Source: a virus. Taken from it: DNA of 20,291 nucleotides. The stretch spans positions 1-20,291 of IMG/VR virus record IMGVR_UViG_3300025120_013943; one strand, given 5' to 3'. Position 1 is the first letter of the stretch. Each line of letters starts with the position of its first letter. Under the pieces are notes generated by a model that was given only the letters and a program-made list of their open reading frames with translations, searched no databases and had not been told where the DNA came from. The translations under genes were made by a program, and so were the position numbers. Positions 1 through 20,291 of the stretch are shown here, piece by piece.

Positions 1-3000
1 TACCTATATTGGCGTAGCCATCATATTTATATTTACTAATTTCTGGTGGCTTATTTTCATCTATACATGCAGGCTTTGGATTTGTCGCAGTCTGAGTAAC
101 TGTGACGATACCTTCGGGAACCCCAGTCCCGTCGGATGAGTTACCCGGAGGAATCATGTCTGTAAGAGCATCACGATTCTTGTTGATAGAGTAGTTGATT
201 CCACCATGGATCGAATAATTAAAGTCAGCTGATACAGAATATGGTCTCGAGAATCTGCGTGTCGCATAAGTGTTTCCTTGATATACTCCGTTGCTACCGG
301 ATAGGTTGATAGGATTGGAGGATGATTGCTCATTCTGATTCGTGAGGACATCGATGATTGCGCCTTCACGTCGCTCCTTTTGCCATAAACAGTTTTCGTT
401 TTGATCTCCGGACAATGGTGAGTGACCAGTTCTCCAGCTGTACTTCATTTCCTGCACACCTCTCATTGAGGCTTCAGTGGAAGTTACGGTACTTAGCAAA
501 CCAACTTGTCGTTGATACTTGTCTCTCTCGAGTATGTGAGGTTCGATAACATCGACGATGCCCCCAGCGAAGTTTGCCGACAGTGGAATCAACTGGTTGA
601 CCATAGAGGAAATGTTTGAGTCAATCCACTTGAAGTACTCGAAGAACCGATCGAAATCAATATCTCTCTCGACTTTGTCAAAGAACAGTTGGCGAGCTTT
701 TGCGAGATCCTTGTATTCCACTCGATAGCGATCAACGGGACGACCAATGAGGTTGGCGAACTCTACAGTTGTTGAGAAAGATTTTAGCATCTCCTCGGAT
801 ATAAGAGCTGATGGAGATTTCTCCATAACGAACAGATTATCACTCACATCATCGTCATCAGAGAAGTTGATCTCTTGCTCCCCCTTGATATATATGTTTT
901 GAGCGTCGTAGGCGCTCTCAGGCAGCTGTTTCTTGTAAGCTTGGATGAACTCATAGCCAAAGACCGAAACGTCGTTCAGAGGGAAATTTGCCCCCTTAGC
1001 TTTGTGTTCTCTGCGGATGATATCATCAATGGTTCCGTAGATCGTATCAGTGTGTCCTGATGTGATGTCTTCGACAACAAACTCTCCGGATCCGTCAGAT
1101 GTTGTAACGGTGTCGAAGTCCCAGTTTAAGATCGTTAGGTCTTGAGTTGGGATTTGGATGTCGTCAATCAAGTAAAGGTTTGACCCGTCAATAGATGAAC
1201 GCATACCATAATTTAAAACGTCCTTGTTGTGTTGTAGGATTTCGTCGTTCTCCAAGTAGTCAAGCCATACTCTGACGCCTCCGACTTGGATATCTGATTT
1301 CTCTCGAGCAGTTGCTCCTGTGAAGTCAACGAGGTGTGCGCCAGCGTATACACGCTTGGATGCGTTCATCAAGGCGAGGCCGTCGGCATTTGAAATTGTC
1401 TGAGATAAAAGAACCTCTTGTTCTACTTCTCCGAAGTTTGTGGTTACAGCGTAAAGCTCCACATCGTAGCTTGGAGCGGTGTTGGTAACACCTCCGGCAT
1501 ACGGGTAGGTTTGAGGCTTGATTCTTACGGCAACGTTGTAGTGTTCGTTTTCGTAGATGTCGTAAATGAAGTCTGACTCTTGCTTGATGGTTCCAAGTTC
1601 GTTTCTCAATACAAACTTTGCGTTTCGAGAACCAACAGAATCTCGAACAATGTAGACACACAAGTTTTGAGCTCCCCAAGTGAAGTCTGCAGGATTCGCA
1701 GCAGCTTCGTGGAAACCCATCACAGATGCAGATATGAATGAGGTGTCGAAATATCCCGCCTCGCCCACTTCTTTCTTGTAGGGCACTACTATGTCGGCTT
1801 CCATCGTAAAAGCGTTTCTAGAGGCATCAGCGGACGCTGCAATGTAAGAATTGGGGTTTGCTGAGGATGCGACTTGATAGATTACTGAATCAAAGTGGTC
1901 TGGATCGTTGAAGTTGATGTACTTCTTCTTAACTGATGTCTCGCGCGCCTTGTCTGTGAAGTATTGTGTTCCACCATCTGTGTACAGGTTCAGTCGTATG
2001 AGTTCGTCATCAATACCGTAACAACGAATGAGGTTTCGAATTGAACCTTCTGTACCTTTGGTCTTGTAAATCTTCTCAAGGTTGTTGTAGATGTTGGTAT
2101 AGATGATGTTCTTGATTTCGTGGAGTTCAGTTTCGAACTGATTGTCTTGTAAGTTGATTGACGCTAGCTTTTCAAAGACTTCGTCATTCTCGAACATGGT
2201 CGAGACCATGAACCCTCTGTCTTTCAACAGGTCTGCAGCTAATGTGTTCGTTTTTATACCTGATAATGGATATCTCTTTGTCTTAAGTTCGGTCAACTCT
2301 TTGATTTGAACATGTAGAGTGTCCATATAAGAGCCTAGGATCTGAGAGAACAATCGGAGGTTTCCGTTGTCCTCTTCTTGCAGCCATGTGGGCATCGATC
2401 GGAAGAATGCTTGGCCTCGATCTGCATCGTAAGCAGATCCAGATGTTTGCATCTCAGATACAAGCGAGGAAACACTCGGATGTGTTGAGTAAATAATTGG
2501 AGAAGGTGTCTCAGTATATCCAGACAAGTTCATTGCGGAGTCTGTGGAGCGAGCGCTCGTTGTGCTTGAATACCCTATCCACGTTCCATTGGCAAGTCGA
2601 CCTGAGTAGTCTAATACTGTAGCGTCGGTTGTGCTTGTGCCGGTTATTCCTTCATTGAACTTAAAGTAAACTCCAAGATCAGACGTTGCATCGTCAGTGT
2701 TTGCCCCACCGCCAATTACGTCGAGCCAGTTGAGTTTGATTTGTCGCGATGTTCGTTTCGTCTTCCAGAAACGGAATTCATCGAGGTACCCCTGAAACTT
2801 ACCTGAGGCGGTTGCTCCAAAGCCATCAAAACTAGTTTGCATAGCACCAATGAAGGCATCCATTTTTCCTTCGAAGGTATATGTGCTAGAAAAGTTTGTA
2901 GAAACTGTTTGAATCCCATCGACGTAGGACTTAGCCTTGAGGATACCATCTTCTTCGATTAAAGAAACGGCAAAGTGGAACCATGTTCCGGTTGCAAAAC

Positions 3001-3712
3001 TTGTTAGTTCAAATAGTTTAGTTTGTGTTGTTGCATTTTTGAGCAGTCTCAATCTTATGTATTGTTTTGACGAGAATTCTGCGAATTCAACAATCATTCT
3101 AGAGTTGGTGGTCGTGGAACTTCCATTCCACAGATCCAGAATCACCTCGGCTTCATTAGCAGTTGTGGAATCCTTCTTCATCCAAAATTCAACGGTTGCT
3201 CCGTTGGTGAAGTCGCAGTTCCAGTTTTGATTTCTGTTCTTATCTGCTTCATATCGTGCGGAAGAAATAAAGTGGTCGCTGAGAGTCGTAGCGTCACTAT
3301 CTGTATGTAGTCCGCCCCATACTCTGATGTATTCCGGAGTTGTTGTTGCTCTGTATACACCTGAAAGTCCAGCCAAGTCGGCAGAAGTTCCAAGCTCAAC
3401 ATGTCCTGTTGTTTTTGGATATTTGTTCTCGAACACCCAGCGTTCAAGCGCAGACGCGGAATGTTCAAATGAAATCTGTTCTGCTTTTGAACCATCATAG
3501 GGGTAGTCTTCGTAGATACGTCTGATTGCTGCGTCATAATACAGTTCTGCTGAACCATAGTATACGAAGTTTTTGGGATCGGAAAAGTCGATCTGCGGAT
3601 GATAGGTTTGGTCCGCTTTAGTCTTTTCTTCTACAAATGCGACGCTTTCGACGTCTTGGACAGTATCTTCAAGGTTGCGAGAAGTCTTGCCGAATAAATC
3701 TTTAATACTCAT
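1..3712 (-). CDS. Giant baseplate wedge/adhesin-like protein: gpI/gp7-like segment flanked by two LamG-like domains (partial, 3' end outside window)
   Basis: The frame starting at ATG 3712 is open for 1237 codons to the left edge with no stop, so the C-terminus lies outside the window. I spot-checked the frame at both ends and in the middle. Residues about 165-330 look like a concanavalin/LamG-type jelly roll: a strand with EFWMKK, then GTWFHFAVSL, YVDGIQ, and the closing GYLDEFRFW. Residues about 430-575 resemble the P2 gpI / tail protein I family: a helical start FFRSMPTWLQEE and the typical KGTEGS-IRNLI turn near residue 551. Residues about 630-830 form a second LamG-like unit ending in VGGVRVWLDYLENDEI. 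The ATG overlaps the upstream stop by 11 nt. In P2 and Mu, a gpI homologue follows gpJ; T4 gp7 is regarded as the counterpart. Placement after the gp6-like gene supports a wedge role. The LamG domains suggest glycan or surface binding, which is inference. Confidence 0.8.
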   Translation of the reverse strand, partial: MSIKDLFGKTSRNLEDTVQDVESVAFVEEKTKADQTYHPQIDFSDPKNFVYYGSAELYYDAAIRRIYEDYPYDGSKAEQISFEHSASALERWVFENKYPKTTGHVELGTSADLAGLSGVYRATTTPEYIRVWGGLHTDSDATTLSDHFISSARYEADKNRNQNWNCDFTNGATVEFWMKKDSTTANEAEVILDLWNGSSTTTNSRMIVEFAEFSSKQYIRLRLLKNATTQTKLFELTSFATGTWFHFAVSLIEEDGILKAKSYVDGIQTVSTNFSSTYTFEGKMDAFIGAMQTSFDGFGATASGKFQGYLDEFRFWKTKRTSRQIKLNWLDVIGGGANTDDATSDLGVYFKFNEGITGTSTTDATVLDYSGRLANGTWIGYSSTTSARSTDSAMNLSGYTETPSPIIYSTHPSVSSLVSEMQTSGSAYDADRGQAFFRSMPTWLQEEDNGNLRLFSQILGSYMDTLHVQIKELTELKTKRYPLSGIKTNTLAADLLKDRGFMVSTMFENDEVFEKLASINLQDNQFETELHEIKNIIYTNIYNNLEKIYKTKGTEGSIRNLIRCYGIDDELIRLNLYTDGGTQYFTDKARETSVKKKYINFNDPDHFDSVIYQVASSANPNSYIAASADASRNAFTMEADIVVPYKKEVGEAGYFDTSFISASVMGFHEAAANPADFTWGAQNLCVYIVRDSVGSRNAKFVLRNELGTIKQESDFIYDIYENEHYNVAVRIKPQTYPYAGGVTNTAPSYDVELYAVTTNFGEVEQEVLLSQTISNADGLALMNASKRVYAGAHLVDFTGATAREKSDIQVGGVRVWLDYLENDEILQHNKDVLNYGMRSSIDGSNLYLIDDIQIPTQDLTILNWDFDTVTTSDGSGEFVVEDITSGHTDTIYGTIDDIIRREHKAKGANFPLNDVSVFGYEFIQAYKKQLPESAYDAQNIYIKGEQEINFSDDDDVSDNLFVMEKSPSALISEEMLKSFSTTVEFANLIGRPVDRYRVEYKDLAKARQLFFDKVERDIDFDRFFEYFKWIDSNISSMVNQLIPLSANFAGGIVDVIEPHILERDKYQRQVGLLSTVTSTEASMRGVQEMKYSWRTGHSPLSGDQNENCLWQKERREGAIIDVLTNQNEQSSSNPINLSGSNGVYQGNTYATRRFSRPYSVSADFNYSIHGGINYSINKNRDALTDMIPPGNSSDGTGVPEGIVTVTQTATNPKPACIDENKPPEISKYKYDGYANIG

Positions 3713-5087
3713 TGTTTACCACTCTAAATCTATGCTTAAAAGGGAGCTCTTGATAACTCTTGGTCATTACATTAAATAGAGCTAACTTGATTTCGTAATC
3801 ATAATTAGGCTCTAGCATGCTAATATCAAGATCAAAATAGTTCCCGTTTGCGTCATAGGATAGCGTGGTTGTTTTGTCGGTCGTCTTGTCGTAATCAAAT
3901 ATGATCTCGTCCGTTGCGACTCTGCAGATTTTGTACAATAGGTTGTCGTACACTTTAGAGTCTGGTCTCGATGCTGCGACTGTGAATATGTTTGGAGACC
4001 AGTCTTTCTCTCGGATGTAAAAATAGAAGCGAGAGGTTTGACCCGTATAGTGAGAGTCTTGGTTGTTCAATACAGAAACAACAAGATCGTAAATAGGTGA
4101 AGTTCCAGTAGGTACTTGTGTGGTGACCGTAATGGACCCTGTAACGACTTCCGTACCGTTGTCGGACCAAACGTCGTAGAGAGTGCTAGCAGACGTTGTA
4201 GGGGTCACCACGGCCTTGTAAACGCCTGTTTCGGGATTAGTTGTCGCAACATCTGTAGCAGTAGCGATTGCTGGTGTGCCTAGGGTTTCATGTAGAGAAA
4301 CTGTTACTGGTCCAGCTAGATTCGTTAGTGCTCCCCTCAACTCGTTGTAAAGATAGATGTTGTTTGATTTTCCTGAGAGTAGAGTCTTCCGATGGTCTGT
4401 TGTCTGGGAGTCCCAACGTGCTTCGATAACAGGCTTCTTGAAGAAGTTGCTTGTTCCTCGAGCAAAGAACATCTTTGTGTAATAAGAGCGAGTTTCGGCT
4501 GTGGCTGAGGCTGGGAGCTTTACGATAAGTCCGTAGTTAGATGCGGGAGTAGCTCTCCAAGCATTGACAAATGAAGTGATCTCGACAGATAGGTCCTCGC
4601 CTCCTTCAGCAAAAGTAGCGGTAACGGGAGTGCCCGACGGGAAATGCCCACCGAGAGTAGTCCATGCGACACCAGCGCCTTTTTGTTTCCAGCTAGAGCC
4701 TTTACCATATGTGAGATCTCTGTAGTCTTCCATATCCATTCCCGTACCCTCTTCCCACGCTTCCTCTAGAGGAACAACTTCAAGTTGAAAGTCCAAAGGC
4801 AATGTGCGACCGTGTGGAGCGTTGAAGAGCTTTAGGTAATATTTTGCGGCTGCATCAAGCTCGCCTGCTGTAATGTCTGCCGTGATCTCCGTGATATCAA
4901 ATTCAATGAGGATCCGTGCTTCTTCAGCAGAGAGGACTCCCAAAGAACTTTCAACCTGACCGTAGATAGAAAAAGCTTCGAGGATATCCGAGGCTCCCAT
5001 GTTGGCATCTTGGCCATCTTCTGATAGATTCTCACGGAAGGCGTTGGTTATCGTATTGTCCTTCGTTGCGTAGTAACGTTTAATCAT
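3702..5087 (-). CDS. Beta-rich tail/baseplate-associated protein with DNRLRE-like and Ig-like regions
   Basis: 461 aa. The first 230 or so residues follow the pattern of DNRLRE / carbohydrate-binding-like jelly rolls: an opening of the type 'ATKDNTITNAF', a shared strand ARILIEFDI, and a later strand SNYGLIVKL followed by PVIEARW. Residues about 244-322 look like an Ig-like beta sandwich, rich in T, V and A with alternating strands and the segment GVYKAVVTP. The last 140 residues include FYFYIREKDWSPNIF and end in aromatic beta strands. No signal peptide or membrane segment is visible. The start ATG overlaps the stop of the gp6-like gene by 4 nt (ATGA), so translation is probably coupled. It sits between the gp6-like and gpI/gp7-like genes, where P2-type clusters have nothing, so a peripheral baseplate or fibre-anchoring role is likely but unproven. 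Family assignment is by pattern only. Confidence 0.7.
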   Translation of the reverse strand: MIKRYYATKDNTITNAFRENLSEDGQDANMGASDILEAFSIYGQVESSLGVLSAEEARILIEFDITEITADITAGELDAAAKYYLKLFNAPHGRTLPLDFQLEVVPLEEAWEEGTGMDMEDYRDLTYGKGSSWKQKGAGVAWTTLGGHFPSGTPVTATFAEGGEDLSVEITSFVNAWRATPASNYGLIVKLPASATAETRSYYTKMFFARGTSNFFKKPVIEARWDSQTTDHRKTLLSGKSNNIYLYNELRGALTNLAGPVTVSLHETLGTPAIATATDVATTNPETGVYKAVVTPTTSASTLYDVWSDNGTEVVTGSITVTTQVPTGTSPIYDLVVSVLNNQDSHYTGQTSRFYFYIREKDWSPNIFTVAASRPDSKVYDNLLYKICRVATDEIIFDYDKTTDKTTTLSYDANGNYFDLDISMLEPNYDYEIKLALFNVMTKSYQELPFKHRFRVVNNEY

Positions 5088-6886
5088 CTGACCAATACTC
5101 CTTTGATATCAGTGGCTGGAAGTTTGAGTTCCATAATTACATTCTTTGGCGTCTTGATAAATGTACCATCTTGGGACATGGCTTCTTTAAAGTTCATACG
5201 AACCATAGAGTAATTGGAGCTAGTTTTTTGGTACACATTAACTTTCTTCACATCCGATACACCCTCGACCTTTGACAAGACAGCATAGAGTCTTGTGATG
5301 TAGACCGGCTCTCCAATGTAAGATTGGTTCGAGAAATAGTTGCGGATTGCGGCATTGCATCGCGATAAAATGTTTTCATTAGAAAATCGAGGGTCAACGG
5401 AGACCTTAAAGTCGACTCCGAAGTTTACAATCTTCGCATCGTATATATCGAGGACATCATTGAGAGATTTATATTGCGTCAGCCAGTTTTTAATATTTTG
5501 TTTTATTCTAGAATTCGCATTTATCAGCTTACCATCGGAATCCTCTGATACGATATACATGGCCATTCTTCTGTTTGTTGCCGAGGGATCATTTATCACG
5601 CTGACGCGTTTAATAATCCCAAATTTGTTAGGCATATTATACACTAGAGATTCGTAGTCTTGACGAGTGACTGCCCTACCTTGAGATGCGTAGTGTCCAA
5701 CCGCTCTTTGTTTTAACTCTTCGTTCGTCATTCTTTCGGCTGAGCCAACGATTGGCTCTTCATTCGATATTTCTATAGATGAGACGACACTGCTTTTCTT
5801 GCTAGATACGAGAGTTATTTCTGAAGGGAACTTCATTCTTGCGTTAATGATAGAATTCACATCACCGGATGCGGCGCTAGATAGATCTGTTGTGTTTGCT
5901 TTGGCTATGACCGTCAGTGTCGTACCAGAAGGTGAAATACCCAGCTTAGTGGTACCAATGAGTTTGGATGGATCAAACGTTTGAGAAGATATATAGTTCT
6001 TCCCATGCATCTCGAGAAATACCTTCGACGGATCAGCTATCTCTTCAGCTTCGGAAGTTTCTGATCCGAATCCAAACTGCAAGTATGTTCCGGTGTCGTC
6101 TTGTTCGACTACGAATCTTCTAGTAGCCACAAATGGCTTGAGAATACTTCTCACTCCTTCCGAAGCTGCTGCTCGATTTGTAGTTTCTCTGAATACAACT
6201 TCTTGTGATAAATTATCAACTTCGTAATATGTGTTCCCATCAGAATCTTTAACCGATATAACTTCACTATATGTCGAGTCACCGATTCTAATCTTTTTAA
6301 ACTTTTCGAACGTTGAGCTTCTAAGGTCTACGGTTATTCTTGAGAATGTACCAGAAACGACCTGTCCGACAGTTTTTACTGCGAAGTGTGTTGTTTGACC
6401 AGTTGACGCATCAAATTTAGCAGCCACAATATCATTTAATGGGTTATCAAATGAAACATCTTCGGTCAGAGTAAATACAGCACCAGAGGAAGCCGAAAAG
6501 GAAGAACCTTTTTGCATCACAGGCATGTAGTTGAAATCTGGAGCTGTACCATCAATATTAGAGGGTACGAGAATAAAGATTGAAATAAACCCGTATGAGT
6601 TTGCGGATCCTGCGAATTTAAAGCCCAATGATCTTGCGTGTTTTCGAATATTGTTGAACTCTATAGCCGAATCCATGAATGATTCGTTGGCTTGATAGTC
6701 CAAGTAATACGATAAGACATCTCCGACATAGGCGACTGAGTCAACCAGAAGCGAATTGATCGTTCCTTTTGTAAAATCCTTCCATTGTTCTGGATAGAAT
6801 CTTTTCGCGTGCTCAACGATATCAGACTTGATAGAATCAAAGTCTCTACTGGTGTATTTTATAGGTGTTTTCTTTTGTTTTGACAT
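5084..6886 (-). CDS. 6: Baseplate wedge subunit, T4 gp6 / baseplate J-like
   Basis: 600 aa, close to T4 gp6 (about 660). The N-terminus (residues about 10-110) has the family opening with YTSRDFDSIKSDI, a DFTKGTINSLLVDSVAYVGD helix, and a YQANESFMDSA segment, all typical of gp6-like wedge proteins. The C-terminal half (about 380-570) has the J-like core: NEELKQRAVGHYASQGRAVT, the DYESLVYNMP segment, and a helical region ending in VYITRLYAVLSKVEGVSDV. gp6 family proteins form the dimeric arms that hold the hub in the inner ring of contractile tails. The gene lies 35 nt downstream of the gp25-like gene; a GAGGG sequence lies about 10 nt before the ATG. The next gene overlaps its stop by 4 nt. 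Family assignment is strong by motif and context. Confidence 0.9.
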   Translation of the reverse strand: MSKQKKTPIKYTSRDFDSIKSDIVEHAKRFYPEQWKDFTKGTINSLLVDSVAYVGDVLSYYLDYQANESFMDSAIEFNNIRKHARSLGFKFAGSANSYGFISIFILVPSNIDGTAPDFNYMPVMQKGSSFSASSGAVFTLTEDVSFDNPLNDIVAAKFDASTGQTTHFAVKTVGQVVSGTFSRITVDLRSSTFEKFKKIRIGDSTYSEVISVKDSDGNTYYEVDNLSQEVVFRETTNRAAASEGVRSILKPFVATRRFVVEQDDTGTYLQFGFGSETSEAEEIADPSKVFLEMHGKNYISSQTFDPSKLIGTTKLGISPSGTTLTVIAKANTTDLSSAASGDVNSIINARMKFPSEITLVSSKKSSVVSSIEISNEEPIVGSAERMTNEELKQRAVGHYASQGRAVTRQDYESLVYNMPNKFGIIKRVSVINDPSATNRRMAMYIVSEDSDGKLINANSRIKQNIKNWLTQYKSLNDVLDIYDAKIVNFGVDFKVSVDPRFSNENILSRCNAAIRNYFSNQSYIGEPVYITRLYAVLSKVEGVSDVKKVNVYQKTSSNYSMVRMNFKEAMSQDGTFIKTPKNVIMELKLPATDIKGVLVR

Positions 6887-6921: not shown

Positions 6922-7335
6922 CTAAAGAACTTCCAGTTCAAAAACCTCTGGTATCGTTAGATTGTTGTAGAAGAATTCAATGCGTATATTCAACACTGGT
7001 CTTGTTGAATCTATATCGACTTTCATATCTGAAATAGTCATGTAAGGCATATATGTTGCCGATTGAGATCTAATTAACGAATCTAAACTTCCAGTATTAA
7101 CTTCTTGTTCTTGCAAGAATAGATAATCTGGTAGTCCTATACCGTAGTTAGCATCCATTACATATTCACCAGGTCGGGTCAATAACAACATCTTTAAATT
7201 TTGCTTTATTGCTTCGACTGGATTTAGGTCTGAATACGAGGACACTCCGAATGAAGTTCCAGTGACCCGACCAGAGCCGATTCCGAACCCCGGTCCGGGC
7301 CCTATCTCTAATGGAAAAATAATTGAAATTGACAT
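6922..7335 (-). CDS. 25: Baseplate wedge subunit, gp25 / GPW family
   Basis: 137 aa, matching the usual size of T4 gp25 (132 aa). The conserved core is present: NPVEAIKQNLKMLLLT, then RPGEYVMDANYGIGLPDYLF (about residues 53-72), which fits the GPW/gp25 pattern of a helix, an arginine-proline-glycine-glutamate turn and the glycine-rich strand. The C-terminal half alternates hydrophobic strands (VLNIRIEFFY). The first 30 residues are glycine-rich and unlike T4 gp25. gp25 is the sheath-like polymerisation seed at the inner baseplate, linked to the (gp6)2-gp7 wedge. AAGGA lies 7 nt before the ATG and overlaps the end of the preceding giant gene, whose stop is 3 nt upstream. Placement directly before the gp6-like gene agrees with W-J order in P2 and with related phages. 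Confidence 0.92.
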   Translation of the reverse strand: MSISIIFPLEIGPGPGFGIGSGRVTGTSFGVSSYSDLNPVEAIKQNLKMLLLTRPGEYVMDANYGIGLPDYLFLQEQEVNTGSLDSLIRSQSATYMPYMTISDMKVDIDSTRPVLNIRIEFFYNNLTIPEVFELEVL

Positions 7336-7338
7336 AAT

Positions 7339-10300
7339 CTAATCCTTAAAAAGTTTTTGGAAATCATTTAGGCACTCATTTCCGTCTTTGTTGAATGGAT
7401 TGATATCAACAATTCTAGCTGATTGCCACCATCGTACGCTTCCGTCTAGACCTAAGTAAGAGTCTGGTAATAAATTAGACAACCATTTAGCATCAAATTT
7501 TCTCTTTTCTTGCTTGCTGCTTTCATAATCATCGTCATCTGATTGGTATGTGGATCTAAACTGCTTCTTTATCGTGACCTTAACATCATTGAAGATGGTT
7601 CTCTTCCATTGGTTTTTAATCTTATCTCGGCGATCTTCTTCGACTTCATCTGGGCCTAAGCCTATACATTCAAAGAAATTGTAATATGAGTATATTCCGA
7701 ACAAAGAAGTGAAGGTCGTGGTCTTGATAATTGTTTCGAACAAGAACTTAAAATCTTTAGATTCAGACAACTTGTCAATATAACACTTAGTGTCTTCGCC
7801 AAGATCTTCGTCATCAAGATCAATATCTTTAATCGCCTTGTCCAATAGATCATGTTCGTAGCTAGCCATTGGAATGTGATAAAAGCCTCGAATTTTTCCA
7901 ACGCGCTCCTTTAGTTCATCTAAGTTTGGAATGAGATTCAAAGAGGAGTGAGGAACATAGATTAGCCTAACTCCAAACTTGACTCCGATGCTACCAAAAA
8001 ATTTATTATTCAAAACAACAGCATTGCCAAAATAGTCTGAGATCTTTAGGTTTGGATCATATTGCTCTGTGTTCGATATCATTTCTTTGAACTCAGAAAT
8101 GGTCATGACTTGTTCGGTATCATCTTTTGAAATGACCCTCAAGTATTTCTCTATAAACATGATGCCTCTTTCTGGAAGGTTCCCTAGAGACTCCATGTTA
8201 CTAGTAGATGAACTAACTAACTGGCTATCTGGACAATTCATTATCTTTCCATACTCTGGTTTGCCTGATCCTTCGACAACTTGAACTTCCACGGTGGATA
8301 ACCCAGATTTCGTTTCCGAAAAATTGACCACTCCATTCTTGGACAAGGCTAACTTTTTTATGTCCCACGCGTGAGGAAGGGGTCTCATATTCAAAGAGAT
8401 CCTATCAGATAGGCTAGACATCTCTCTTTTCAATAGGGCCGCTAAGAAAACTTGAGCATGCCGTCTAGAGTCGTGTATAGCCGCCACCTTTCGAGCCATT
8501 CTTCTTTTGTCTAGGCGCATGATCGCCAACTTTCTTCTATATTTATCCGGTGATATTGATTTGAATTTCTCCTCCCATTCATCGTTATGTCCTATTATCG
8601 CAGCGCCTTTGATTGTCTGCCTAATAGCTACAGCAGTATCATCGCTTCTCTCAAAGTTCATTTGAACTTTGTTGAGTGCTTCGAGTGCATTCGTCATTTC
8701 TGGTGTCTCGTCTAGAAGTCCTTCTTTGATTTGACGCTGGGCAACTTGAACGCATTGTTCGATAAACAAAAGGTAGTAGGTGTACGATTTAACAAAATTG
8801 AAATCTATACTGCTTCCTTCGGCAATAAATTCTTGCTCGATTTTTTCAGCCATCATCATGAACAGTGAGTCGTCATAGTTGTCGGAAGATAGTCGAATAG
8901 ACCCTAGAATTGGTAATGTTCGAAGTATAAACTCTGTACCGTAAGTTCTAAGAGCAGAGATTATTAATCCCTCGAGGATACCGTGATTCGCAGGTGTTAA
9001 CTGCCTATCGTATGGTACTTCGAACCTGCACTCTGGTTCTTGAGATAATCTCTTGTCGATAGGTAAGGATCCTTCGATCTTTTTTGCTCTTCTTGCGATG
9101 TCGTTAATTTGTAAAAAACCATTATCAACATCATCGCAAACTTCCATCTCAGGTAAGAAAGCTTTTACCATACCTAACCAACCGCCATAGCTTGCTGGTT
9201 CGATATATATCTTGGGAAACAGGTATGAGCCTCCGTGGATAGCTGGATCAAGAAAGTGTACTCTCGGATGTTCAGTGGCTGATTTTCCAAGAATCTTTTC
9301 TGCTGGAAGCTTGGTGTATACCCAAGTTAGCATGCGGTCTGGGTCTGCTTCGGGGTTGACGTATAACATGTCCTTGAAAGTTACCTTTTGCCCATCGTCC
9401 GCTCCAAAACTAAAGCCGAGCGGAGTATCTCCGTTTGTTTTTTGAGTGATAGTTTTCTTAACAAAGTTCAATGTCTCCAAGTTCCAAGAGTCAGTAACTT
9501 TTTCTAGTTTGCCCAACATTGAGTTGCCTATATTATTGTTAGCCTTTTTCATCAAAAAGTTTCGGAACAGAATAGTCTCAACGTTAAAGTATTCTTCGAA
9601 AATACTGTAATCGATTTCGTTCGTCATATCTTGAACAGAAAAATCCTTTACTCTAAATCGACTTGAGTTAGGGCTCACAATGCCGCCGAATCTAGATCCT
9701 TCAAGTCCAAGTTTTTTCTTTTCTTTCCTAGATATTCTTCTGTGGAAAGTTTCGCCAACCTTTACGAGATGAGTTGGGTTGGGTCTAGGGAGAACACGAT
9801 AGACAAGCTTGCTTTCGTAATCAGTCTCCTCTTCAGAGTCTTTGAAATTCATAACAATGGTATTCTTAGCCTTCGAGTCGTATTGGAGGTTCATATTCTT
9901 CATTTTTTGAAGCATTCTACCTCCAACAGTTTCAGGGAATTCTCCGGTCATCTTATCTAGATCATAAGGAAATCCACCTAAGACAGGGACGTCGACTTGG
10001 AAAGGAAAATTATCTTTTCGTCTTTCGAGCATCTCTTCGTTGTCAACATAGTTTGGTCGGATGAATGGTTGCCCTGCTCTTCTTTCGTGCTTGTTGAGTC
10101 GGAATCCGTAAGTGTCCACAAGAATATTGTTGAGGATTGAGTTCCTACCTTCGATAAGGTCCGACATAAACTTCTTCTCGATTGTTTTGAAAAAGTCATT
10201 TAGCATATCAAGTTTTTCAGCGGCGAGATCTTCGTCTTCCAAAATAATAGCAGATGGATTCGTTTCGCAGTCAGGCTCTCCTTGGTTCAAAAGGTCATCC

Positions 10301-13300
10301 AGCGCTTCCGCTAGTAGCCCTTCAGGGCCTTTTTGAAGCATATTAGATACAGTACCTAGGTCATCTAGTGCACGATCGTTGGCTTTGTCTATGAGCTCTT
10401 GAGCGATATCTTCATCTAGACCACTGCTAAGATAGATTGCTTTTCTATCACTGTTCCACTTGTTCAACTCCTCTTGAGTCAGACAGATCGCATCGAATAC
10501 TGGACTCTCGGGTACCTGAGAAGCTTGTTCTTTTAAAAATGCTCGTAGTTCTGGTGGTATGAATTTTTGCATTGAGCCAAAGCAATCTCGGATATCTGCT
10601 GGGTCTCCAAGTACTGGAGATAAGGCAGGACATCTTGAGTTTACCAATTGGGATACCTTCGTCACAACAACTCCATCCATATTGGACGGTGTGTTCGTCA
10701 GTAATCCAATAATCTCTTGCTTGGACATGGCGGCATTTAAAGTTTGAAACAAGCAGTCATAAGCAGAAGTATCTGGGGCTTGTAATCCGGAGCCGCCTTT
10801 CCCTAAAGCATTGTTAAATAAATTTTCTTTGATCTTATCGAGGTCTGCATCCGCATTCGGGCAAAATGCGTCTTTTACCGCTTCATCAAGACCATTGTGG
10901 TCACCAGTCAATAGAGCTGCCGAGAGTTGACCTGCGGCGTTAATACTCTTACAGAGAGCGTCATCGACTGTCTGAATTAGTTTTAAGATCATCTGGGTCA
11001 ATATCTTAGTCAGTACAGTCTCGAGTTTGTCAATAAATTTATTTCTTATTATTGTTAAGAAGTCTTTTCTCCAAGGTTTGAGATCTCTGATGTTAAATTT
11101 TCTCATTGCACTTGGGAAACCTAAGGCAGTGTTTCCGTCGCTACATGGGTCAAAAGATAGCGTTGAGAGAAAAGATTTGATCGGAGGATTGTGGAGACCC
11201 TGAAATGAGCATGTAACTTGATTGAGGTATCTTTGAACCAATTGTCCGCCGGGAAATCTATCTAGGTGAGACATCAGCTCATCTACTCCAAGAACATCCA
11301 TCATGTTTTCAATGTACATGTCCACCAGTGCAGACTGTATGTCTCCGAGAGCGGTGCCCAAAGTACCTTGTGCATTTGTTTGAGCAGCAATCAACTCTTC
11401 TTGTCTCTCCGGAGGCAATTTTGAAAAATCTTCTTCTTGGAATTCTTTGAGTTGATTTTGGATGTCGTTACGCGCTACTTCTAGCTGTTTTATCTCGAGA
11501 TTTATTTGAGATCTTTGTTCATCTAGAGATTGAATTTCCGATGAAGATAGTGCCTCAGAAGTAGGTGCGCTAACGGCATCTTCAAATGCTGTTGATTCGA
11601 ATTGTCTATCGGCAATATCTAATTCTATTTTTGCTAAGTCTTCTTTCAGTCTTGTTTTTAGTGGTCCAATGTTGCTATTTATCCCTCCAGCTGATAGATG
11701 TTTCAAATAGGGGTTTGAATCTTGAGATGATCCACCAGAAAAACCAGCTTCCCAAGGCATCGGCATATCTGCCCACTTTTGGCTTGCCATTTCTCGGAGC
11801 TCTGCTTGTTTTGCTGGTGGTAGCCCTTGGACGAAGAAACCCATCACATCGATATCCATTGCCTCTAGTGCTGCTTGGACAATCTTTTTGAAGGCCGCCT
11901 CCTGTGTTACTCCTGAGAACAAACACTGGATAGCATTGATCGTCAAAGCTTTTACATTACAAAGTGTTAACCTTTTTAACAAATCTTCCGGTGCTGATTT
12001 GGCTGTTTGATTTGCTTTCGGCGAAGTAATTTCTCCCGTGGTCATGAAAGTTTCTATATCTACGAGTTGCGCTAGTATGCCATCTTGATACTTTAGTTCT
12101 TCAAGGGCTAGCTTCTTTGCTTCTTTAAAGTATGGATTTCCCAATTCTCGATTAGCTTTACGGGCTTGTTTGGCTAAGTTTCTCTTGTTTTGTTTTTTCG
12201 TTTTTTTCGATGGAGATTCTGCATCTAGTTCATTTTCTAGACCAACAAGGGCGTCTCTTAAAGATTCTATTTCTGAAGGCAGTTTGTCTAGTTTTTTCTG
12301 AAGTCTCTGAGAATTACGGGCTGCTTCATCCCGCTGGTTTTTATATTTTCTTAGTGTTTTGTTGTCTGAAGCGCCAGATGATATGAATTCATTGAACATT
12401 TCTCTTTGGGCTTCAAATTCAGCTAGTTCCGATTCCATTAATTGTTGGTTCTGTAATAAAGATTCTAGTTCCGATTCTTTTTTAATTATAATGTTTATTA
12501 CAGTTTCGACAGGATCGTTATTTGCTGATTTTCTCGCATCAAGACCTGGAGTAAATGTTTCTTGTTTAAAATATTTCTTTTCAATCTCTGATTCAGCCAA
12601 CAAGTCTTTGCACGACTCTTTGGAGTTAAACTCGTACGCAATGGCTTGCACCAAAGACAGTGCTTCGTTTAAAACGTAATCTCTTAGTTCTCCTCCGAAC
12701 TCTTCAATGTTGTTGGCTACACACTCTCCAAGAGTATCAGTTACGGACTCTTCATTAAGAACTCCATAGTCAACCACCAAAAGCGGGAAAGTAAACTTAA
12801 CTAAGAAATCAAGCCAAGGGTAAGACTGCCTAGCTTTGAGTGCAGTGTCAATTTCTTTTATCTTTGCGATGTAATTCATAACCGTTGGCTTATTGCTATA
12901 TTTTTTTGCAAACTTGCTATTTCGGCCGCATATTCTTTGATAATCACAACCATCAATTTTTGCTTCAATTCGCTTGATCTTATATGGATTTCCGTTCTCA
13001 CCAGTCATAAAAGTTATGCGAAGTTTGTCTGCATTCTTTACTATCACCGATGGAGTGTTAGATCGAATATTCCACCTCTTCTTTTTGGGCTTCATTTCGC
13101 TATTTGCTTCTGCCTTCAAATCTTCGTAAAAGGTCGATATTTTACTAGAGAAAGATGATGCATAATAGTCACTACCGCTTTCTTTAAATTTCAAGAAGCC
13201 ATCTTGAGTCTGGTAGAAATGTGATTGGTACGTAGAGTACGCTTTGAGAGCGGACTTTAATCTAATAATTTGACCAAAGAATTGTCTGATGTCTATTTCT

Positions 13301-14037
13301 ACTTCATTTTTCGTAGCCTCTGCTGACTGTTGTATTTCCTGGCCAGTTGGATTGTCTGGTACAGAATCTAAAATGAACGCTGGTATGGCTACCAAAACCT
13401 TCAATAAACCTTGCATAGGTTCGATATCGAAATCAATCACTCTAGCGTAAAGTTCTAGAGCAAAAGGGTTCTTAATTTCATTAGATATACTTTGAAGAAC
13501 AAACTGCGTAAATGAGATAGGTTCTTCAGGGTTAAATTCCAATGGCCCTGATTTTGTCAAAAGATCAGGACAATCTTTTGGCTTCGCGATAGGGTCATCT
13601 CTTAAGTCCATAAAGATCCCATCAAAGTTATCATATTTTTGCAACAGTTCGTTCGGTGTCCTACCAGCAACGGCTGGTCCATCATGAGATGCACAGATAA
13701 TTTGCTGAGCTATTAGTTTATCGGTGTCCTGCAACATCAATCGAATAGCAGGTTGCACAAAAGATCTGAACAAGTGTTCTCGAGTTGGATACTTTGAAGA
13801 CCCTACGGCATTTTGGAAGTCGGTTCCCTCAAAATATTGCCCTTCATTGTTTAATGTTACGCAAATTTTATACTCACAGTCAGACTCATCCAGATATGTC
13901 TCTTCAAGCATCTGTCTCCAATCGGGAGCTATGAATGATTTGTTGGGGGTGCATGCAGGGCAAAACTTCTTAAGAGATAGGTCATCCGGTGCACCATCGC
14001 AGACCTTTGATTGAAATTGTTCAAAATTATTAGACAT
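7339..14037 (-). CDS. Giant 2232-aa virion protein of unknown family, baseplate region
   Basis: I do not recognise a characterised family. The N-terminus has a CPAC motif (Cys26, Cys29) followed by PNKSFIAPDW, a combination that looks like a conserved phage structural signature. Residues about 515-635 are strongly heptad-like and charged, predicted coiled coil, ending in a lysine-rich KKTKKQNKRNLAKQARK stretch. A second long helical region runs about 793-895 (LKTRLKEDLAKIELDIADRQ, then LEVARNDIQNQLKEFQEED). Residues about 990-1065 are amphipathic helix. The C-terminal half is mixed alpha/beta with scattered cysteines. No signal peptide or clear transmembrane segment is visible. It starts 1 nt after the spike-like gene with AGGAAAG as ribosome-binding site, and ends 3 nt before the gp25-like gene. 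A virion, probably baseplate, role is inferred from position. It is long enough to be a tape measure, but its place after the hub and its sequence do not fit that well. Confidence 0.8.
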   Translation of the reverse strand: MSNNFEQFQSKVCDGAPDDLSLKKFCPACTPNKSFIAPDWRQMLEETYLDESDCEYKICVTLNNEGQYFEGTDFQNAVGSSKYPTREHLFRSFVQPAIRLMLQDTDKLIAQQIICASHDGPAVAGRTPNELLQKYDNFDGIFMDLRDDPIAKPKDCPDLLTKSGPLEFNPEEPISFTQFVLQSISNEIKNPFALELYARVIDFDIEPMQGLLKVLVAIPAFILDSVPDNPTGQEIQQSAEATKNEVEIDIRQFFGQIIRLKSALKAYSTYQSHFYQTQDGFLKFKESGSDYYASSFSSKISTFYEDLKAEANSEMKPKKKRWNIRSNTPSVIVKNADKLRITFMTGENGNPYKIKRIEAKIDGCDYQRICGRNSKFAKKYSNKPTVMNYIAKIKEIDTALKARQSYPWLDFLVKFTFPLLVVDYGVLNEESVTDTLGECVANNIEEFGGELRDYVLNEALSLVQAIAYEFNSKESCKDLLAESEIEKKYFKQETFTPGLDARKSANNDPVETVINIIIKKESELESLLQNQQLMESELAEFEAQREMFNEFISSGASDNKTLRKYKNQRDEAARNSQRLQKKLDKLPSEIESLRDALVGLENELDAESPSKKTKKQNKRNLAKQARKANRELGNPYFKEAKKLALEELKYQDGILAQLVDIETFMTTGEITSPKANQTAKSAPEDLLKRLTLCNVKALTINAIQCLFSGVTQEAAFKKIVQAALEAMDIDVMGFFVQGLPPAKQAELREMASQKWADMPMPWEAGFSGGSSQDSNPYLKHLSAGGINSNIGPLKTRLKEDLAKIELDIADRQFESTAFEDAVSAPTSEALSSSEIQSLDEQRSQINLEIKQLEVARNDIQNQLKEFQEEDFSKLPPERQEELIAAQTNAQGTLGTALGDIQSALVDMYIENMMDVLGVDELMSHLDRFPGGQLVQRYLNQVTCSFQGLHNPPIKSFLSTLSFDPCSDGNTALGFPSAMRKFNIRDLKPWRKDFLTIIRNKFIDKLETVLTKILTQMILKLIQTVDDALCKSINAAGQLSAALLTGDHNGLDEAVKDAFCPNADADLDKIKENLFNNALGKGGSGLQAPDTSAYDCLFQTLNAAMSKQEIIGLLTNTPSNMDGVVVTKVSQLVNSRCPALSPVLGDPADIRDCFGSMQKFIPPELRAFLKEQASQVPESPVFDAICLTQEELNKWNSDRKAIYLSSGLDEDIAQELIDKANDRALDDLGTVSNMLQKGPEGLLAEALDDLLNQGEPDCETNPSAIILEDEDLAAEKLDMLNDFFKTIEKKFMSDLIEGRNSILNNILVDTYGFRLNKHERRAGQPFIRPNYVDNEEMLERRKDNFPFQVDVPVLGGFPYDLDKMTGEFPETVGGRMLQKMKNMNLQYDSKAKNTIVMNFKDSEEETDYESKLVYRVLPRPNPTHLVKVGETFHRRISRKEKKKLGLEGSRFGGIVSPNSSRFRVKDFSVQDMTNEIDYSIFEEYFNVETILFRNFLMKKANNNIGNSMLGKLEKVTDSWNLETLNFVKKTITQKTNGDTPLGFSFGADDGQKVTFKDMLYVNPEADPDRMLTWVYTKLPAEKILGKSATEHPRVHFLDPAIHGGSYLFPKIYIEPASYGGWLGMVKAFLPEMEVCDDVDNGFLQINDIARRAKKIEGSLPIDKRLSQEPECRFEVPYDRQLTPANHGILEGLIISALRTYGTEFILRTLPILGSIRLSSDNYDDSLFMMMAEKIEQEFIAEGSSIDFNFVKSYTYYLLFIEQCVQVAQRQIKEGLLDETPEMTNALEALNKVQMNFERSDDTAVAIRQTIKGAAIIGHNDEWEEKFKSISPDKYRRKLAIMRLDKRRMARKVAAIHDSRRHAQVFLAALLKREMSSLSDRISLNMRPLPHAWDIKKLALSKNGVVNFSETKSGLSTVEVQVVEGSGKPEYGKIMNCPDSQLVSSSTSNMESLGNLPERGIMFIEKYLRVISKDDTEQVMTISEFKEMISNTEQYDPNLKISDYFGNAVVLNNKFFGSIGVKFGVRLIYVPHSSLNLIPNLDELKERVGKIRGFYHIPMASYEHDLLDKAIKDIDLDDEDLGEDTKCYIDKLSESKDFKFLFETIIKTTTFTSLFGIYSYYNFFECIGLGPDEVEEDRRDKIKNQWKRTIFNDVKVTIKKQFRSTYQSDDDDYESSKQEKRKFDAKWLSNLLPDSYLGLDGSVRWWQSARIVDINPFNKDGNECLNDFQKLFKD

Positions 14038-17962: not shown

Positions 17963-17967
17963 GTCAA
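17939..17967 (-). promoter_or_regulatory. Near-consensus sigma70 promoter with extended -10, reading into the virion gene cluster
   Basis: On the minus strand the -35 is TTGACT (17967-17962), the spacer is 17 nt, and the -10 is TATAAT (17944-17939). A TG one base before the -10 makes it an extended -10 (TGCTATAAT). The predicted start is near 17932, giving a leader of about 20 nt before ATG 17912. Five of six -35 bases and all six -10 bases match consensus. The -35 overlaps the dehydrogenase stop codon. A T4 late promoter would be TATAAATA without a -35, so this is a host-polymerase type promoter. Confidence 0.88.
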
Positions 17968-18794
17968 GTCTTTTTTTTATTTTTTTTTGAAATAGCCCCA
18001 GAAATCCGCTCCCAGTTTCTGTCTTCTCTAATTTCGAGATTCTTTTCCCATGCTGCTTGTTGGATTTTTGGGTCTAAATCTAAAGACCTGCAATAGTCAT
18101 TGAATGCTTGGACGTCCTTTGGAAAACACTTGCCTCCGTAGCCTAGATGGCCGTCAGGACCGGGCACCATTGTGTGCATGGGGTTGACCCAACCTGAGGA
18201 CATTAGACCGTCTAGAGAGTCATCCCAGTTGACTCCAGCTTCCATGGCGACTTGATGAAACTCATTCATTAGAGATACTTTGGCGGCGAAGAAACAGTTG
18301 CAAAAATATTTTATAAAACATGCAGTCTTGGCGTCCGTCTTTATGTAATGACAAGTTGGAAAGACTTTTTTGTAGAGAGTCTCAAGCAAATCATTGGACT
18401 CGGACCTTTCGCTTCCGAGAACGATCCTCTTTTGGTTCTTGAAGTCTTCCACAGCAGTACGCTCCGTCAGAAACTCCGGATTAAAAACAAAGTAGTGATC
18501 TGGGAATATTTGTATTAGTTCTTCGCCGGCCTTAGGCGTAATCGTGGATTTAATGACGAGAGTCTTTTCTGTTGGGATATTGACTATGCAATTCATCAAC
18601 GGGTTCAAGTTGAACGTACCATCGTCAAAGACTGGTGTGGGTAAACAGAGAAATAGTACGTCATTGGTAACGCAGTCTTCAAATGAGTCCTTGCTCTTTG
18701 ATGGGTCGATGTCGAACACTTTTATGTCGAAGTGATCCTTCATCCCTTCAAATAGAGCGTTGCCGACGAAACCGTTTCCTAATATAGAAATCAC
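17964..18794 (-). CDS. Short UDP-glucose/GDP-mannose dehydrogenase-like protein
   Basis: 276 aa from GTG 18794. This start forms a GTGA overlap with the methyltransferase stop and puts the Rossmann strand and GNGFVG right at the N-terminus, as the family expects. An ATG at 18893 in the same frame would add 33 basic residues inside the methyltransferase gene and is less likely. Family marks are IKSTITP, NPEFLTERTAVEDF, the helix FIKYFCNCFFAAKVSLMNE with Lys162 and Asn166, and GYGGKCFPKD with catalytic-type Cys223. These cover the NAD-binding and central domains. The usual C-terminal domain of about 150 residues is missing, as full enzymes have 400 or more. The gene ends in KKNKKKT encoded by long A runs. 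The family oxidises UDP-sugars to uronic acids; activity of this short form is uncertain. Confidence 0.8.
   Translation of the reverse strand: MISILGNGFVGNALFEGMKDHFDIKVFDIDPSKSKDSFEDCVTNDVLFLCLPTPVFDDGTFNLNPLMNCIVNIPTEKTLVIKSTITPKAGEELIQIFPDHYFVFNPEFLTERTAVEDFKNQKRIVLGSERSESNDLLETLYKKVFPTCHYIKTDAKTACFIKYFCNCFFAAKVSLMNEFHQVAMEAGVNWDDSLDGLMSSGWVNPMHTMVPGPDGHLGYGGKCFPKDVQAFNDYCRSLDLDPKIQQAAWEKNLEIREDRNWERISGAISKKNKKKT
17971..17988 (-). promoter_or_regulatory. A-tract, candidate UP element upstream of the -35
   Basis: Two runs of A (nine and eight) on the minus strand split by one T, starting 4 nt upstream of the -35. A/T-rich tracts here are the usual binding site for the RNA polymerase alpha subunit C-terminal domain. 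The same bases encode the KKNKKK end of the dehydrogenase. The function is inferred from position and composition. Confidence 0.5.
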
Positions 18795-19327
18795 TTTGTA
18801 GCTCGCAATCCGAGATTTATTTTCCCGTGGAGCCTGTTTGCACGTGAGTTTTGTACTTTTACAACTTCTGTGAATCCGGCTTTTTTTAAACAAAAAGTTA
18901 AGTATTTTTGATCAAAACAGGACTTGTGATAGTTTGATAGTGTTGGACCGTAACTAATAAGTCTAGACGCAAACCATTTCACGCTATGTTCTTGATTATC
19001 GAATTTTAGCCAGTCGTCTCCAGAATTGCCGTTCATATAGCACTCAACTAAGTATCCCAAATCAGGCACATGAATTTCTATAGTTGCTCCATCTTTTAAT
19101 ACCCTATATGCCTCAGATAGAGCATAGTCTACCTGAAACCAAGGAACATGCTCCAAACAATGACTAGCATATAACATATCTACGGACTTGTCCATCAGAG
19201 GGAGAGGGTCGGCGCCCCATGATGCAACATGATCAACAACACCTTCTCTTTCAAAATCTCCAATTGTTACCCATTCTTTAGAGATCTTTCCAAAGCCCGG
19301 CCCTATTTCAACTTTTACAATCGACAT
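18791..19327 (-). CDS. Class I SAM-dependent methyltransferase
   Basis: 178 aa. VEIGPGFGK at residues 6-14 is the SAM-binding motif I. DMLYASHCLEHVPW and EAYRVLKDGATIEIHVPDL are motifs typical of Methyltransf_11-type enzymes and COG4627-like proteins near sugar or surface-polysaccharide genes. The C-terminal part includes ISYGPTLSNYHKSCFD and a final strand. The start has AGGAG 7 nt upstream and lies 2 nt after the phosphoribosyltransferase stop. The substrate cannot be read from the sequence. The link with a dehydrogenase of sugar nucleotides suggests a sugar or surface target, which is inference. Confidence 0.85.
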   Translation of the reverse strand: MSIVKVEIGPGFGKISKEWVTIGDFEREGVVDHVASWGADPLPLMDKSVDMLYASHCLEHVPWFQVDYALSEAYRVLKDGATIEIHVPDLGYLVECYMNGNSGDDWLKFDNQEHSVKWFASRLISYGPTLSNYHKSCFDQKYLTFCLKKAGFTEVVKVQNSRANRLHGKINLGLRATK

Positions 19328-19329
19328 CG

Positions 19330-20151
19330 TTAAACTCCTAATTTTGAATATAATCTATTATTTTCTATGCAATAAACATCCTTTCCCGTCAATTCAAATA
19401 TTTTTTCTGCTTGCCATAAGCTACTTTCTACGAACAATACGGCGTCGCTCGAGCTATAGTGTTTTGCTTTATATACACCTGCGTTGGATCGTAATCTTCT
19501 TTCGACAGCTGTAGGGAAGTTTTGCATTATTAGTTTCCCATATTTAACCTTATTTTTACTGAGCCATTCTTCGGTGATGGAGCGCCATCGCTCGATTCTG
19601 TTGGTGCAAATGCTGTGTATGGGATACTTTGTTAAAAATAAATGAGGAAGGATTCTTATTTCATTTTCATAACTTTCACCGTCATCATCGTAAACCCTGG
19701 GATCTATGCACAGTACACCATCCATATCAAACATTACCTTAGAAGTGTTTAAGTTATTGAACATGTTCCACTCGAACATCCTAGGTCCGTCTATAATGCT
19801 GGAATAGAAATCTAACAAATTAGAAGAATTAGATCTAGCTATTACAGCAGCTGTAAGCTTTTCATATTTTTCATATTTTTTAGCCTCAGAAATCATAGCC
19901 CTTCCGCTGCTTATTGAATCATCAATTATAAGAACCTTTTTTACAATGGAAGGGTTGCTTATTCTTTCTCCGCCATAACAAACACCATCGACCATTATAG
20001 GTACGTTTAGTTTCTGAGCTATTTTGAATGCAGGAATCATCCCGCTACGTAAAACTGGTACTACTGCATCTATTTTTTGATATGATTTCAATATTTTCAT
20101 TGTAAGATCGTCTATCATGCGATCAAATTTTTTATAACTTACAAATTTCAT
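19330..20151 (-). CDS. Phosphoribosyltransferase-HAD fusion
   Basis: 273 aa from ATG 20151, chosen because GAGG lies 5 nt upstream and the N-terminus MKFVSYKKFDRMIDDL is the usual start of this family. The N-terminal half is a type I phosphoribosyltransferase: VVPVLRSGMIPA (31-41) and the PRPP loop VLIIDDSISSGR (73-84). From about 139 a HAD-like domain begins: VMFDMDGVLC with motif I Asp142/Asp144, ICTNR as motif II, and LFVESSLWQA near 239-248 where the usual acidic pair is reduced to ES. Each half is complete in outline. The substrate is unknown; a base, nucleotide or sugar phosphate is possible. An in-frame ATG at 20211 adds 20 residues, and the frame stays open to the window edge, so a longer protein is possible. 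Confidence 0.82.
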   Translation of the reverse strand: MKFVSYKKFDRMIDDLTMKILKSYQKIDAVVPVLRSGMIPAFKIAQKLNVPIMVDGVCYGGERISNPSIVKKVLIIDDSISSGRAMISEAKKYEKYEKLTAAVIARSNSSNLLDFYSSIIDGPRMFEWNMFNNLNTSKVMFDMDGVLCIDPRVYDDDGESYENEIRILPHLFLTKYPIHSICTNRIERWRSITEEWLSKNKVKYGKLIMQNFPTAVERRLRSNAGVYKAKHYSSSDAVLFVESSLWQAEKIFELTGKDVYCIENNRLYSKLGV

Positions 20152-20291
20152 ATTTTCCTCTCTTAATAAGTTGTGAAACAGGTCAATTGCGTCAGCCTTC
20201 TTTTGTCTCATCTTGTCGATGAGGTCTCTACCGTTTAGCGAATACCAGTCTTCATAGCATGCACCGATGAGGGAGCGGTTTGTAAAAACCT
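20152..20291 (-). other. Unresolved upstream coding sequence in frame with the phosphoribosyltransferase
   Basis: The frame of the phosphoribosyltransferase continues upstream without a stop to the edge (codons from 20289). It reads protein-like near the end: EDWYSLNGRDLIDKMRQKK. The other two minus frames stop at about 20252 and 20235, so an upstream gene could also end in either of them. I cannot decide between a fused domain and chance openness over about 46 codons. Confidence 0.4.

Follow-up and report, generated by a model that had tools for sequence, protein, structure and literature searches.

The baseplate operon and its giant, probable wedge gene

The window, meaning the whole stretch analysed, is a 20,291-base record of an uncultured virus (IMG/VR record IMGVR_UViG_3300025120_013943) with a baseplate operon on the minus strand. 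Downstream of gp25 and gp6/J, with one gene of 461 amino acids (aa) intervening, lies a giant open reading frame (ORF), which very probably encodes a gpI/gp7-like baseplate wedge protein with two LamG domains, as an earlier reading of the letters alone (the sequence-only reading) had proposed. Two homologous proteins from cultured phages, gp109 of Flavobacterium phage immuto and WWT39511.1 of Microcystis phage Mel-JY01, served as references. The features are as follows.

2..3712, minus strand: giant wedge protein, N-terminal 1237 aa; starts with ATG and is cut off by the contig edge, with the 3' end beyond it
3353..3712, minus strand: aa 1–120, conserved N-terminal region restricted to this lineage (alignment of relatives)
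2594..3355, minus strand: LamG1 jelly roll, aa ~120–373 (Pfam Laminin_G_3; VIA match to pentraxin)
2798..3250, minus strand: exchangeable face of LamG1, aa ~155–305 (close-pair comparisons)
1913..2452, minus strand: first half of the gpI/gp7-like core, aa 421–600, with helices, the KGT helix and the first strand (hhalign to the immuto core, E 1e-12; deeper profiles, 1.7e-21)
2051..2059, minus strand: KGT motif, aa 552–554, in register with P2 gpI and T4 gp7
1208..1822, minus strand: likely LamG2 jelly roll inserted in the core, aa ~631–835 (structure prediction; in the Mel-JY01 clade, not in the immuto clade)
488..877, minus strand: second half of the core, aa 946–1075 (hhalign to the immuto core, E 6e-6; deeper profiles, 5e-11)
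2..382, minus strand: aa 1111–1237, fast-changing junction to a giant tail (comparison with relatives)
6922..7335, minus strand: gp25 (Pfam GPW_gp25, E 1.7e-9)
5084..6886, minus strand: gp6/baseplate J-like wedge protein (phrog_6, E 3.9e-27)
3702..5087, minus strand: gene of 461 aa separating gp6 from the wedge, DNRLRE-like in part (NCBIfam NF033679, below the cut-off at E 7.5e-5)

The order gp25–gp6–461-aa gene–wedge is the same in immuto and Mel-JY01, which contain one further gene (small in immuto) and a gene of similar size (373 and 395 aa, respectively) at the position of the 461-aa gene. The DNRLRE-like stretch of the latter may represent another beta-sandwich encoded in this operon.

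That the protein exceeds 1237 aa, as anticipated, follows from the ORF being open at the contig edge, and the remainder of the gene could be recovered through relatives. Their complete genes encode 1229–4326 aa (52 copies, some near-duplicates), and those of the closest relatives 2095–3153 aa. In most the tail is fused to the wedge, whereas in L111, L115 and L173 the wedge ends at 1229–1241 aa and the tail has an ORF of its own that begins a few bases further on, which amounts to a natural series of gene fusion or fission. Since these separate tail ORFs align from aa ~1280 with 59–61 of the 61 fused proteins, the window contains nearly the entire wedge unit, and the missing part is a fused neighbour. 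Some tails carry extra LamG domains (L010, L163, L117, and L144 with three stretches), and others have none by Pfam; in the C-terminal tails of L144, L163, L117 and L118, between one and three additional LamG domains or a reelin-type subrepeat occur.

At least 569 candidate relatives were retrieved with two LamG1 patterns, so that the sample is biased towards LamG1-bearing proteins and the core is not necessarily present in all 569. The best 80 loci among the matches listed, all on metagenome contigs, align over nearly all of aa 1–1110. Judged by these alignments, the wedge family appears to be common in metagenomes; a search of 50,697 phage records yielded no member of this architecture. The N-terminal 120 residues had no profile match to the N-termini of the immuto or Mel-JY01 proteins. 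A T4-type capsid protein, Gp23, is encoded in six of eight related records, which reach 193 kb, and the nearest capsids from cultured phages are those of Mel-JY01 (37% identity) and Rhodothermus phage RM378 (34%). By this capsid evidence, the source is an uncultured T4-like phage lineage. A search for gp53 (PF11246) in the related records was uninformative, as its control gave no signal.

The LamG domains and the KGT core

Pfam Laminin_G_3 matched aa 169–326 of the window protein with an E-value (E) of 3.1e-12, at 47.3 bits versus a cut-off of 27.6, and was likewise above the cut-off in the relatives L004, L005, L010, L112, L116, L117 and L118. The AlphaFold2 model of the window protein (aa 1–1110, 10 sequences) had a mean predicted local distance difference test score (pLDDT) of 42 and was usable only in the two LamG regions. 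In that of LamG1, with pLDDT mostly 65–80, aa ~120–373 matched pentraxin 3flp in VIA (Z 14.0, 175 residues, root-mean-square deviation (rmsd) 3.3), and other LamG folds also matched. Family profile and predicted structure together establish the LamG fold of LamG1. The range of about 165–330 put forward by the sequence-only reading coincides with the Pfam match; given the span of the fold match, the jelly roll itself is wider.

LamG2 was assigned by structure prediction. Residues 630–830 were predicted to be all-beta, with pLDDT mostly 55–80, and Foldseek with the same model, a query that held both LamG domains, aligned chains with two LamG domains over 659–704 columns (neurexin 6cw1 and 3asi, laminin 2jd4), a length that fits two jelly rolls in the model. 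A domain corresponding to LamG2 is present in the Mel-JY01 clade, colinear with aa 412–1066 of the window protein (hhalign E 5e-17). LamG2 is therefore, at the level of predicted structure, likely a LamG fold. A profile comparison of LamG1 with LamG2 yielded no significant match, so internal duplication is not demonstrated.

The stretch at about 430–575 with the KGT turn, which to the sequence-only reading looked like tail protein I, did resemble that family: the profile of the KGT segment KIYKTKGTEGSIRNLIRCYGIDDELIRLNLY (aa 547–577) aligns at the motif with the gpI profile (hhalign E 1.8e-4) and weakly with T4 gp7 (E 0.02), the LamG1 control giving E 0.2. Inside the wedge ORF of L103, Pfam Tail_P2_I scores at the KGT site with E 0.0029 (one record) and 13.6 bits, below the cut-off of 20.6. 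The immuto protein aligns with the window protein in two pieces, aa 420–578 and aa 947–1083 in window numbering, with LamG2 missing between them, and the spliced core matches the LamG-free immuto core with hhalign E 3e-29 (deeper profiles). This two-piece alignment and the order of the core strands indicate that LamG2 is an insertion between the first and second core strands, and immuto, as seen in the alignment, is a natural 'empty' (LamG-free) version of the wedge. The picture of a gpI segment sandwiched between two jelly rolls accordingly holds for LamG1, which is N-terminal to the core, and fails for LamG2, which splits the core into aa 421–600 and aa 946–1075, the second half following it.

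As the fold search with the two-LamG model was filled by LamG1, the LamG-free immuto core was modelled instead. That model (pLDDT 63) contains the KGT helix followed by three strands (205–208, 265–270 and 356–361), and the eight highest VIA rows were without exception chains from the baseplates of contractile systems: cyanophage A-1(L), phiKZ, a Streptomyces contractile injection system, P1 twice, T4 5iv5_BJ (residues 644–896), Pam3 and phi812, with Z 3.1–6.2 and rmsd 10–14 Å. Structure 5iv5 includes gp7. Each match is weak, and their weight lies in their consistency across the eight baseplate chains. PDB sequence searches returned nothing significant, either with the window protein alone (best E 0.37, to a pentraxin) or with profiles built from the window family and from the immuto core.

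Could the protein be a large adhesin or a tail fibre whose gene lies next to gp6, with the KGT motif a coincidence? Neither Pfam nor PHROGs found a baseplate family in the wedge ORF, and the weak fold matches and the adhesin-like tail would suit such a protein. It would leave unexplained the gene order, the two-part homology to the LamG-free immuto protein, the motif in register with both gpI and T4 gp7, and the eight baseplate chains heading the fold list; we consider it highly improbable. A gpI/gp7 identity of the core is strongly suggested, and a gpI fold, as far as modelling goes, is supported but not proved.

Exchange of LamG1 between close relatives

Across close pairs, the identity of LamG1 (aa 121–300) did not track that of the core, averaging 0.53 at core identities of 0.90–0.985. 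The relatives L112 and L117 are the clearest example: they are 97–100% identical on both sides of LamG1 and mostly 0–20% across aa ~184–290, and their LamG2 and core are 98–99% identical while LamG1 is ~31%. Synonymous differences per site (pS) amount to 0.07 in the N-terminal part and 0.14 in the first core half, and rise to 0.59 in LamG1. Such a jump within one gene argues for replacement by recombination rather than point mutation under selection. Both alleles maintain the reading frame and match Laminin_G_3 (E 2.3e-16 and 7.8e-17), and the closest other aligned sequence is only 23–24% identical to them in this region. The window's own clade comprises three LamG1 types. In 21 independent close pairs, the least conserved 150-aa stretch fell in LamG1 in nine and in LamG2 in six (p 0.004 for the two domains combined, 0.01 for LamG1 by itself). 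These sequence comparisons demonstrate that the LamG1 face is exchanged as a cassette between near-identical wedges, a pattern that resembles the behaviour of a surface-recognition head and not that of a passive scaffold. An early impression that LamG1 and LamG2 were merely a conserved scaffold was revised after the close-pair comparison. In a further pair, L002 and L007, pS is 0.07 in the first core half and 0.40–0.45 in LamG2 and the second half of the core, a rise suggestive of another recombination breakpoint.

Because the sequences are metagenome contigs and phage genes are known to recombine widely (PMC10684548), the exchange might be an assembly artefact or ordinary mosaicism devoid of function. 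The swap, however, occurred between matching flanks within one gene, with frame and LamG score kept in both alleles; the lowest-identity stretches concentrate in the LamG domains over independent pairs; and three LamG1 types coexist in the window's clade. This explanation is therefore very unlikely.

A structural role deserves more consideration. LamG domains can be plain protein-protein modules, and here they could mediate wedge-to-wedge or wedge-to-fibre contacts, with the fused tail alone touching the host and LamG1 co-evolving with a swapped tail or fibre. In keeping with this, all aligned relatives have both LamG domains, with few gaps, LamG2 diverges only moderately faster than the core, the tails vary in length and have LamG domains of their own, and the gp7-like part of the AlgoCIS injection system contacts tail fibres (PMC8894135). 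A structural partner would nevertheless have had to be swapped along with LamG1 in L112 and L117, in which LamG2 and core are nearly unchanged, and the distance of either allele to its nearest LamG1 exceeds what co-evolution at one contact would need. On balance, a purely structural role is somewhat unlikely.

We favour a gpI/gp7-like wedge arm in which LamG1 is an exchangeable recognition head, and assign this explanation as a whole a probability of roughly 0.6. Homology and gene order place the core (aa 421–600 and 946–1075) in the gpI/gp7 position, where, like gpI/gp7 in other systems, it would presumably join gp6 and gp25 within the wedge. LamG2 would sit on a loop of the core between the first and second strands, steadier than LamG1 and perhaps partly structural in role, and LamG1 on a lobe of its own at the N-terminus. 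To judge by the way it varies, LamG1 would bind a glycan or another feature of the host surface, hold the baseplate flat on the cell, and be swapped as a cassette upon a change of target; the odds of this recognition role itself are about even. The very long variable tail, fused or encoded separately, may add adhesive modules in some phages. The lectin-shaped LamG domains are probably surface-binding, which suggests that the baseplate itself helps recognise the host. More tentatively, the wedge could be a modular recognition device whose LamG1 cassette passes between phages and changes the surface recognised by the baseplate. Since the LamG domains sit on the wedge subunit next to gp6, an effect on the triggering of contraction is possible.

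Several points weigh against the recognition-head explanation. Besides the protein-protein roles open to LamG domains, the window protein does not reach the Pfam cut-off for Tail_P2_I (PF09684) and cannot be filed under that family, and the T4 gp7 domains Gp7_helical, Gp7_5th and Gp7_6th are absent from its Pfam matches up to E 1. The core model reaches pLDDT 63 and its matches to gpI/gp7 chains are weak. LamG2, whose proposed range of about 630–830 agrees with the all-beta prediction, had no Pfam match even at E 5. Finally, in six of the 21 close pairs the least conserved part is neither LamG domain.

Comparison with known wedge proteins

T4 gp7 is the first point of reference. Its gene follows gp6, as in the window save for the one gene intervening there, its segment FYSTKGIEASYKFLFK aligns with the KGT segment, its residues 644–896 give the weak fold match, and its domain V (766–861) comes after the same helix; it is also large and multi-domain. 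It differs in having no LamG by Pfam and in its own helical, 5th and 6th domains, which the window protein lacks; an fn3 match in gp7 (E 0.0019, below the cut-off) has no counterpart in the window protein. P2 gpI, Mu gp48 and the Tail_P2_I family share the KGT helix (in register with P2 gpI), the position after gpJ/gp6 and a similar order of helices and strands, whereas gpI is only ~176–180 aa, has no lectin domain, and belongs to a family whose Pfam cut-off the window protein misses. The closest counterparts from cultured phages, WWT39511.1 and immuto gp109, are both annotated as hypothetical and share the homologous core and operon region. The former aligns through LamG2 and has no LamG1, the latter has neither LamG, and the N-termini of both are unrelated to that of the window protein.

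Carbohydrate-binding modules on wedge proteins have been described elsewhere. Phage Vp4 Gp119 (baseplate wedge 3) contains such modules, and its fusion to green fluorescent protein decorates host cells, while that of the module-free homologue Gp177 does not (PMC11406892). As in the window family, the modules lie inside a wedge protein and are missing from a homologue; unlike it, Gp119 is another wedge protein (A511 gp105 type), with carbohydrate-binding module folds instead of LamG on gpI/gp7. Alg11 of AlgoCIS is a wedge protein with two inserted carbohydrate-binding modules (PMC8894135); the gp6/gp7-like subunit of that wedge is a separate protein, Alg12, the Alg11 modules build a spike cage, and the system is not a phage. 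Marine T4-like phages are reported to have VrlC instead of T4 gp7, along with concanavalin-type proteins near the baseplate (PMC7029224). VrlC and I899_gp055 of pelagiphage HTVC008M resemble the window protein in being long proteins of the wedge region. VrlC was rejected as a relative, with hhalign E 0.42–0.63 for the core and LamG1 and 0.25 for aa 840–1080. I899_gp055 (L329:33435-36485), located after gp25/gp6, contains LYKAKGTKAANEIFF and Pfam Baseplate_wedge; annotated as 'head closure Hc2', it is probably the misnamed gpI/gp7 equivalent of pelagiphages. A bacterial Tail_P2_I protein (L322) with an NHL-repeat region upstream is another case of an accessory domain on gpI.

Vp4 Gp119, Alg11, the concanavalin-type proteins and the L322 protein thus indicate that accessory or carbohydrate-binding wedge domains are already known as a kind. 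In the literature searched, from which subscription papers were excluded, no report of LamG on a gpI/gp7 wedge was found, nor any paper combining LamG, baseplate, wedge and phage. What is new relative to that literature is the LamG-on-gpI/gp7 version, its scale and the exchange of LamG1. The proposal, also made by the sequence-only reading, that binding lies on the baseplate itself is supported indirectly by the LamG1 exchange and by the published carbohydrate-binding wedges.

Host range in myophages is usually attributed to the fibres and spikes that the baseplate bears, whereas the variable element here lies inside a core wedge subunit, with LamG1 beside the switch that starts contraction. 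If the recognition role is true, a large uncultured T4-like lineage would carry recognition directly on a subunit adjoining the gp6/gp7 core, which controls contraction of the sheath. The lineage offers a natural comparison series, from wedges with no LamG (immuto) or LamG2 only (Mel-JY01) to those with both, tails fused or split, and near-identical pairs differing in LamG1, which makes the role of wedge domains in recognition and triggering testable. As the family is apparently common in metagenomes and its architecture did not turn up in the phage records searched, LamG1 would be a candidate marker for host prediction.

Elsewhere in the window, a 2232-aa ORF (7339–14037, minus strand) between the spike-region genes and gp25 matched nothing in Pfam or PHROGs; its end is conserved in L002–L007, and it encodes a giant baseplate-region protein. 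In a 293-aa ORF (19330–20211, minus strand), inspection by eye suggests a stretch like a phosphoribosyltransferase (VLIIDDSISSGR) and, after it, a HAD-like one (VMFDMDGVLCID). Of two genes at 17964–19327 (minus strand), likewise read by eye, one resembles a methyltransferase and the other a nucleotide-sugar dehydrogenase; they possibly serve sugar modification.

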